This document shows, in pieces, positions 4,864 through 63,747 of a stretch of 64,000 nt of DNA. The DNA lies in contig MVQO01000191.1 of NCBI GenBank assembly GCA_002067585.1, positions 1-64,000 of the forward strand, written 5' to 3'. Source of the stretch: Syntrophorhabdus sp. PtaB.Bin027. GTDB taxonomy: Bacteria > Desulfobacterota > Syntrophorhabdia > Syntrophorhabdales > Syntrophorhabdaceae. The stretch's first letter is position 1, and the number at the start of each line of letters is the position of its first letter. Under the pieces are notes generated by a model that was given only the letters and a program-made list of their open reading frames with translations, had not been told where the DNA came from and did no database searches. The position numbers and the translations under genes are program-made.

Positions 4864-5469
4864 ATGGAAATAAGTGCTGAACTTGTCAAAAAACTGAGAG
4901 AGAAAACGGGTGTTGGCCTGATGGATTGTAAAGAAGCCCTGAAGAACGCTGCCGGAGACATGGAAAAGGCAATCGAGTATCTTCGTGAAAAGGGACTTGC
5001 GAAACTCCAGAAAAGGATGGGGAGGACAGCATCAGAAGGTGTGATTGCCTCCTATATCCATACCGGTGCAAAAGTAGGCACCATGGTGGAGATCAATTGC
5101 GAGACGGACTTTGTGGCCAACACAAAAGAGTTCCAGGAATTTGCGAAAGACATTGCCATGCAAATCACGGCATCGAACCCTCTTTATGTTAAAAGGGAGG
5201 ATGTCCCTGAAGATGCAAAAGAGGCGGAAAAAAATATTTACCGAAAGCAGGCTATGGAGTCAGGAAAACCAGAAAAAATTATTGACAAGATAGCTGACGG
5301 GAAAATGGAGAAATTCTACGAGGAAGTATGTCTCATTGAGCAGCCCTTCATAAAAAACCAGGACATAACAGTAAAGGAACTTCTTGAAGAACTCATCGTA
5401 AAGATGGGCGAGAAGATTATTGTGAATCGTTTTGTGAGGTTTCAGCTTGGAGAAACCATCGAAGAGTAG
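4864..5469 (+). CDS. tsf: elongation factor Ts, short form
   Basis: Nucleotide exchange factor for EF-Tu. At 201 aa it is the short form common outside the gamma-proteobacteria (E. coli has about 283 aa). The N-terminal UBA-like part contains KLREKTGVGLMDCKEAL, and the core TDFVANTKEF motif that wedges into EF-Tu is present near residue 80. The GGAG ribosome site is well placed. pyrH overlaps its 3' end. Confidence 0.97.
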   Translation: MEISAELVKKLREKTGVGLMDCKEALKNAAGDMEKAIEYLREKGLAKLQKRMGRTASEGVIASYIHTGAKVGTMVEINCETDFVANTKEFQEFAKDIAMQITASNPLYVKREDVPEDAKEAEKNIYRKQAMESGKPEKIIDKIADGKMEKFYEEVCLIEQPFIKNQDITVKELLEELIVKMGEKIIVNRFVRFQLGETIEE

Positions 5470-56350: not shown

Positions 56351-56482
56351 TCATATAGAAAAAGGGAATTTTCTGAGTATGTACCTTATAAGATCGTATC
56401 TTTCCTGAAGGGAAAGATCGAAATAGAACCTGCTACCAATCAGTATTCGAATTATTTTTTTTACTTTCGTACGCTCTGTCAT
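56351..56482 (-). CDS. mini-protein B, 43 aa, tandem paralogue
   Basis: ATG to TGA, 43 codons. The core KKIIRILIGSRFYFDLSLQE continues ERYDLIRYILRKFPFS. It matches mini-protein A (56692-56856) at 29 of 37 aligned residues. The upstream GAGG is only one base from the ATG, so translation may be weak. Amphipathic helical, basic. Unknown family. Confidence 0.65.
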   Translation of the reverse strand: MTERTKVKKIIRILIGSRFYFDLSLQERYDLIRYILRKFPFSI

Positions 56483-56691
56483 GCCTCTTGAACAGCAAAA
56501 TCTATACCATCGGAACCAGGCCTCACGTACTCAGGGTGAATGACAGAGTTTTTTAATGAAAGCCCATATTATTTGCATATTATGGACGTATTTATTGAAT
56601 TGGGTTAAGGTCATTTAACAAAGCAACTCCTTGTGTTGTAATATTGGCTACAAAAGGAGCTAGAAAGCTACAAACTTTGTAGGATTTGTTT

Positions 56692-56856
56692 TTAGAAAGA
56701 AAATGGAAATCTTCTTAAAATGTAACGAATAAGATCGTGTCGTTCCACAAGATTCAAATCAAAGTAAAACTTGCTTCCTATTAGTATGTGAATAATCTTC
56801 TTTGCCCGTTCCCCGTCAAGGCGATGTTTTGTATGATCTGTATTTTTGGTGTCCAT
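56692..56856 (-). CDS. mini-protein A, 54 aa, tandem paralogue
   Basis: ATG behind AGGAG at ten bases; 54 codons to TAA. The first 18 residues are polar (MDTKNTDHTKHRLDGERA), followed by the core KKIIHILIGSKFYFDLNLVE and RHDLIRYILRRFPFSF shared with mini-protein B. The strong conservation against diverged DNA indicates selection on protein. Between the HemN-like gene and a secreted protein on the same strand. Confidence 0.75.
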   Translation of the reverse strand: MDTKNTDHTKHRLDGERAKKIIHILIGSKFYFDLNLVERHDLIRYILRRFPFSF

Positions 56857-56980
56857 GAGTTATGCTCCTGGATAAACCTCATTGTTGTCAATGATTAAAT
56901 CGGCTATTTTCGTGGAAAAGTTAATTCGGCCCTGTTTGCACGCTGTGGGAGGTAGTGCTTAAACTGTTGTAATATGTTTT

Positions 56981-57412
56981 TTAATAATTCACCAGAATTT
57001 CTTCATCGAGCTGTAAATTTCCTTTGGAGTCCTTCCCATAGGAAAGAAAGACCGAATATGATTGCATATTTTCTATATTTTTTCTGAGTCTGTCGTAGGA
57101 TGGCGCTTTCTTAGATAGGTGAACATACTTGTCCGGTTTCTCATTGGCCTCAGCTATTCTTGCCTTTAAGATCCGCTTCAGGTCATTTCTATCAAGAACA
57201 GTAAGGGTTTTCCAAATTTTTTCCTGGACAAGAAAACTCATTCTTGGTTCTTCTGTAGCCGTTCCAGTAATAATAAATTTGCAGCTTTTTGACTTCAGAC
57301 AGCTTGATATTTTGTTGTTGCTAACCCTATTTGCCTTGACCGCATGCAGAACAGTGACATGCGACAGGCAGACAACCATTGCCACAGCAATCAAAACTAA
57401 TGATTTGTTCAT
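56981..57412 (-). CDS. secreted protein of unknown function, 143 aa
   Basis: Signal peptide (LVLIAVAMVVCLSHVTVLHA), then a mature domain with two Cys (SSCLKSKSCKF) and a charged region (DRNDLKRILKARIAEANEKP). GGGG-rich ribosome site. Not recognised. Confidence 0.72.
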   Translation of the reverse strand: MNKSLVLIAVAMVVCLSHVTVLHAVKANRVSNNKISSCLKSKSCKFIITGTATEEPRMSFLVQEKIWKTLTVLDRNDLKRILKARIAEANEKPDKYVHLSKKAPSYDRLRKNIENMQSYSVFLSYGKDSKGNLQLDEEILVNY

Positions 57413-63394: not shown

Positions 63395-63747
63395 GGGGGC
63401 GATAGGTCTCGACAGGGAAGTTAAGGGCCAGGGAGGCATGCCGGGGTTACTACTTACCCGAAAACAAGTGGAACTAAACATAACTGCAGACTCTCACGAG
63501 TACGCACTGGCAGCCTAGAGCCGCCACGTCATCTGGACTCTCTGCCCGCTTTGAGTCCAACATGGCGTCATAGAAGCGGGATAGCCCTTCTGGACGCCCA
63601 TGCAGGAGGGTGAATCTGAATGGGCTGGGATCAATGATAACCTGTCGGTAGGTGATCTCTGATCTGAGATTAATATACCGACTAAGCATGTAGTCTTTCT
63701 GTATTCTTCTTCTTTGGACGCGGGTTCGATTCCCGCCGCCTCCACCA
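63395..63747 (+). ncRNA. ssrA: tmRNA (ssrA)
   Basis: Transfer-messenger RNA, 353 nt including an encoded CCA. The 5' GGGGGCG pairs with CGCCTCC before ACCA; the T arm GCGGG TTCGATT CCCGC is perfect. The tag frame from GCA at 63486 encodes ADSHEYALAA and ends TAG at 63516-63518, the usual YALAA degron. The resume codon could be slightly earlier. Follows smpB as expected. Confidence 0.95.

Follow-up and report, generated by a model that had tools for sequence, protein, structure and literature searches.

Tandem microprotein genes of Syntrophorhabdus belong to an undescribed family that is probably linked to motility

The window analysed here is the whole stretch of 64,000 nucleotides at positions 1 to 64,000 of contig MVQO01000191.1 from Syntrophorhabdus sp. 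PtaB.Bin027. Two short open reading frames, A and B, lie in a spacer on its minus strand, as shown in Table 1. A preliminary description had placed frames of 43 and 54 codons on this strand, and both are present at those places. Over the core, 29 of 37 residues are identical between A and B (30 of 38 with the stop), and the nucleotide identity is 70%; the claimed core identity despite drift of the DNA is confirmed. According to the NG86 analysis, pN is 0.167, pS is 0.79 (saturated), and omega is ~0.21. The differences fall on 19 of 24 synonymous sites and on 15 of 90 nonsynonymous sites. In neutral simulations with a matched number of base changes (n = 2000), 17 residues were kept on average and 26 at most, and none of the simulations matched the observed conservation. 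A and B are genuine genes under purifying selection. They had been described as selected and expressed proteins. The first part holds, as omega is not near 1; as to the second, selection and the candidate promoters fit, and we infer expression from these two features of the sequence.

Table 1. Features in and near the spacer that holds copies A and B, and the tmRNA gene of the window
Feature	Position	Strand	Basis or remark
Copy A, microprotein ORF, 43 aa, MTERTKVKKIIRILIGSRFYFDLSLQERYDLIRYILRKFPFSI	56351..56482	-	profile E 1e-20
Possible ribosome site of A, AAGAGG	56484..56489	-	sequence; 1 nt 5' of ATG (poor spacing)
Candidate sigma-54 promoter of A, TGGTATAGATTTTGCT	56494..56509	-	fits TGGYAYR-N4-TTGCW
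Copy B, microprotein ORF, 54 aa, core as in A, N-terminus longer	56692..56856	-	profile E 2e-20
Ribosome site of B, AGGAG	56865..56869	-	sequence; 8 nt 5' of ATG
Candidate sigma-28 promoter of B, TAACTTTT-N11-GCCGATTT	56897..56923	-	4/16 mismatches
Putative secreted protein, 143 aa, upstream of B	56981-57412	-	no family match
tmRNA gene, sole Rfam match in the window	63395-63747	+	Rfam search

The good ribosome site that had been assigned to 'A' is found at the 54-aa copy, but not at the 43-aa copy. The candidate sigma-54 promoter of A is the sole match to its consensus on both strands of the window, and is expected in ~1 in 10,000 shuffles; as a caveat, its predicted start, 12 nt downstream, lands ~1 nt before the ATG. 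The candidate sigma-28 promoter of B is equalled by 2.5% of shuffles, and is weak when taken alone. The family-wide pattern described below is thus firmer than the assignments in the window (A good, B weak). The scans for sigma-70 promoters and terminators detected no terminator between B and A, so that the two genes may be co-transcribed.

A search of the source genome detected four copies, namely A, B, and two dispersed copies at G000:C133:790-900 and G000:C199:30654-30764, the latter two with E values of 5e-9 and 2e-4. In the tree, the four copies form a group that also takes in a single relative (L075) of a different genus. The pattern suggests that the copies expanded in this lineage, although the tree is weakly resolved because the proteins are short. 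Using single-sequence and profile searches, relatives were detected in 22 of 39 genomes and 8 of 13 genera of the Syntrophorhabdaceae-like family. They were also detected in 36 of 297 genomes sampled from Desulfobacterota and in 16 of 148 Nitrospirota genomes. Absence from related genomes had been raised as a test of the two genes; the family is instead widespread there. A collection scan with a narrower alignment set matched six named loci, and the named carriers include Syntrophorhabdus sp. PtaB.Bin047, a Syntrophobacterales MAG, and a Nitrospirota MAG. The proteins have ~40 aa, and their consensus is [KR]EIIxxLMxSxxYFxLxLxERxxLVxxL. In the alignment of 41 members, L14, Y20, and R28 are invariant, and S17 and L23 are nearly so.

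No convincing match was obtained in scans of Pfam, NCBIfam, PHROGs, and PADLOC or in a sequence search of the PDB, in agreement with the preliminary description, which knew no family for these proteins. One marginal library match was to an addiction-module model (E 0.12). A limited literature search found no paper on the family. According to these sequence comparisons, A and B are tandem paralogues in an undescribed family of stand-alone microproteins, which is scattered through anaerobic Desulfobacterota and Nitrospirota. The family was missed by the main libraries searched, across two phyla, because its members are short and stand-alone.

The AlphaFold2 model calculated from the 41-member alignment consists of a helix, a short helix, and a second long helix (mean pLDDT 89.4, pTM 0.62). 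The family is thus predicted to fold as a helical hairpin, which is largely apolar. A fold search against the PDB gave no significant match. The best E value of that search is 4.5, so that its leading entries, archaeal RNA polymerase-bound hairpins, were not taken as evidence.

The frames are short and located in a spacer, and they could in principle be part of an RNA element or have arisen by chance. The single match to Rfam lies elsewhere in the window, and a novel RNA would still be compatible with it. However, the changes between A and B cluster at synonymous positions, conservation across phyla is seen in the protein but not in the DNA, and the residues fit a confidently predicted hairpin. 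In many members, moreover, the start codons are preceded by ribosome sites and promoters. Chance ORFs are excluded by the two further copies in the genome and by the homologues in many other genomes, and we regard a non-coding origin as extremely improbable.

The gene order around the members is shared by genomes of one genus, but differs from genus to genus. In two genera, CheX and two sigma-54-dependent response regulators lie next to the member, and in one further genus flgG, flgI, and flgM are only a few genes away. In Nitrospirota, the member either immediately follows fliA or is flanked by an FlhB-like gene and a flgG-type gene. Flagellar or chemotaxis genes thus adjoin the family in several settings that are independent of one another. 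Such neighbours are missing at many members, and most neighbourhoods are not flagellar. The neighbours in the window are a HemN-like radical SAM gene (NF006385, 498 bits), the putative secreted protein, and selA. None of them recurs beside other members; the linkage to HemN-like or secreted-protein genes proposed in the preliminary description was accordingly dropped, and a link to selA was rejected likewise. A SelB-like gene occurs beside two distant members (L092 and L106), and together with selA here this was judged a coincidence.

Members that are short, stand-alone, and present in several dispersed copies might also be components of toxin-antitoxin systems or other mobile small genes, and the marginal addiction-module match points in the same direction. 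Assignment to a toxin-antitoxin system by an adjacent partner and a family match was rejected, as the neighbours vary and the library matches are only marginal. There is no constant partner gene, and the neighbours differ between genera, whereas within genera the position is conserved. PADLOC and PHROGs gave no convincing match, and the search for viral relatives confirmed no viral contig as carrying a member. A mobile element of this kind is therefore very unlikely.

The upstream DNA of many members shows TAAAGTTT-N11-GCCGATAA or TGGCACG-N4-TTGCW shortly before the start. The former is the textbook promoter of sigma-28 (FliA), and the latter is a sigma-54 promoter. Sigma-28 transcribes late flagellar genes, and sigma-54 transcribes middle flagellar genes and other RpoN genes. 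The upstream DNA of 67 distinct members was scored against these textbook consensus sequences, which were not fitted to the data, and 517 further genes from the loci served as controls. Sigma-28 sites (at most 4 mismatches in 16) were detected in 34 of 67 members and in 16 of 517 controls (p 2e-24), and strong sigma-54 sites (at most 2 mismatches in 12) in 21 of 67 members and 13 of 517 controls (p 2e-13); these cut-offs were chosen after the data had been seen, and the enrichment is large at every lower cut-off too. As a positive control, TAAAGTTT-N11-GGCGATAA or close variants were found at 28 of 30 flgM genes of the Syntrophorhabdaceae-like family. The weak sigma-28 candidate of B is credible because such a site is present in so many members. 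Family-wide, most members thus have a sigma-28 or sigma-54 site directly upstream, at a frequency above background, as in a flagellar regulon.

In several two-copy genomes, one copy is of the sigma-28 type and the other of the sigma-54 type; these are G015, G028, G030, and G036, which belong to one genus, and G423 and G455 of Nitrospirota. In G032, a sigma-54 site precedes the second copy, and the first has 5 mismatches to the sigma-28 consensus; in G463, both copies are of the sigma-54 type. The third and fourth copies of the window genome show no clear promoter site. The DNA upstream of one member (L091, ~5150-5336, minus strand) contains a sigma-28 site as well as a perfect sigma-54 site (TGGCACGCGTATTGCT), which would fit dual control. 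Among the flgM-like genes, two genomes of one genus of the Syntrophorhabdaceae-like family (G003 and G014) have more than one each, with 2 matches in the former and 4 in the latter, of which one is below the cut-off; some of these genes (L183 and L191) do not have the usual sigma-28 site.

All 34 sigma-28-type members are found in genomes with FliA, and none of the seven members examined from genomes without FliA has a sigma-28 site (p 0.005). Four of these seven have a sigma-54 site. Within the Syntrophorhabdaceae-like family, a member is present in 21 of 29 genomes with FliA, as against 1 of 10 genomes without it; the copy of this one exception (G004) is only of the sigma-54 type. In the phylum sample, FliA is present in 35 of 36 genomes that carry a member and in 168 of 261 others (p 1.2e-5), and the p-values of this analysis are optimistic because related genomes are not independent. 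In Nitrospirota, no association with FliA was observed (10 of 16 carriers and 91 of 132 others, p 0.58). Thus, co-occurrence with FliA holds in Desulfobacterota but did not extend to Nitrospirota. About 80% of the genomes with FliA have no member, which indicates that the family is not needed for flagella.

Desulfobacca acetoxidans is described as non-motile (PMC3156406). The genome assigned to it (G250) has a FliA-type sigma factor (264 bits) and a sigma-54-type member (L094). Because of this description and the Nitrospirota result, the main rival to a motility role is a broader sigma-54 role outside motility. According to this rival, the proteins would be small regulators for alternative-sigma regulons in general, such as RpoN-dependent pili, signalling, and metabolism, and flagella would be one setting among them. 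The sigma-54 sites, including those of members in genomes without FliA, are consistent with it, as are the mostly non-flagellar neighbourhoods. On the other hand, half of the members have sites for sigma-28, which serves motility for the most part, and in Desulfobacterota the family is strongly linked to FliA. We consider the general role possible but unlikely.

The explanation that we favour, and hold to be rather likely, is that the family consists of microproteins of the flagellar (middle and late) regulon, which would bind a partner protein as a feedback regulator or a chaperone-like adaptor. The two parts differ in strength. Membership of the regulon is well supported in Desulfobacterota by the sequence data. 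The binding mode is proposed from the size, the predicted fold, and the precedent of DUF1127. In this mechanism, the copies would be transcribed from their own promoters, sigma-28 for B-type and sigma-54 for A-type copies. From these promoters, the protein would be made while the flagellum is built or running. The hairpin may then bind a protein of the motility system and act as the regulator or adaptor. Binding is the most likely mode because there is no room for a catalytic domain and the predicted hairpin is largely apolar. More speculatively, a sigma-54 (middle) copy and its sister sigma-28 (late) copy, here A and B, might form a stage-matched pair that binds a common partner and so provides a checkpoint in assembly; this partner could be an export component, a sigma factor, or the activator of a sigma factor. 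Such a checkpoint, which we advance with considerable doubt, would have been missed so far because the genes are not annotated.

If the partner is named, a special case of the favoured explanation is a FlgM-like anti-sigma factor, that is, a minimal hairpin that holds sigma-28 or a sigma-54 activator and exerts feedback on its own promoter. FlgM likewise belongs to the flagellar regulon; it is small, mainly helical, and encoded behind a sigma-28 promoter, and the LxxSxxYxxL motif superficially resembles the FlgM C-terminal motif. FlgM often occurs in the same genomes as the family, and in one genus it is located ~7 kb away. However, FlgM has ~100 aa as against ~40 aa here, and it is encoded in a flagellar operon, whereas most genes of the new family stand alone, often in several copies per genome. 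Placement in the FlgM family (PF04316) was rejected, since comparisons with 30 FlgM sequences of the same lineage by hhalign (probability 0.15%) and hmmsearch (best E 0.35) and the Pfam scan detected no similarity. Canonical FlgM is also present in most of these genomes. On both grounds, an anti-sigma role is conceivable in function but quite improbable.

The family probably represents small motility-linked proteins overlooked by annotation, to which the promoter signature gives a testable role in motility. A conserved sigma-factor site combined with a conserved short ORF may serve as a discovery route for such proteins. Small proteins of DUF1127 (YjiS and its relatives) are also shorter than 50 aa, stand-alone, present in several copies per genome, and were long unexplained; they act by binding a regulatory protein, the sensor kinase PhoR (PMC12501420). 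Their promoters and distribution differ from those of the new family, and no DUF1127 match was obtained when A, B, and 23 members were compared with Pfam. In enterics, sigma-28-dependent small RNAs tune flagellar synthesis (PMC10578931). These are also small products of the flagellar sigma hierarchy, but they act as RNAs, whereas here the selection is on the encoded protein. The flagellar hierarchy is already known to include small accessory proteins and RNAs, and the sequence family is new to the libraries searched; it adds a candidate regulator to flagellar systems, which have mainly been studied in enterics, Vibrio, and Campylobacter.
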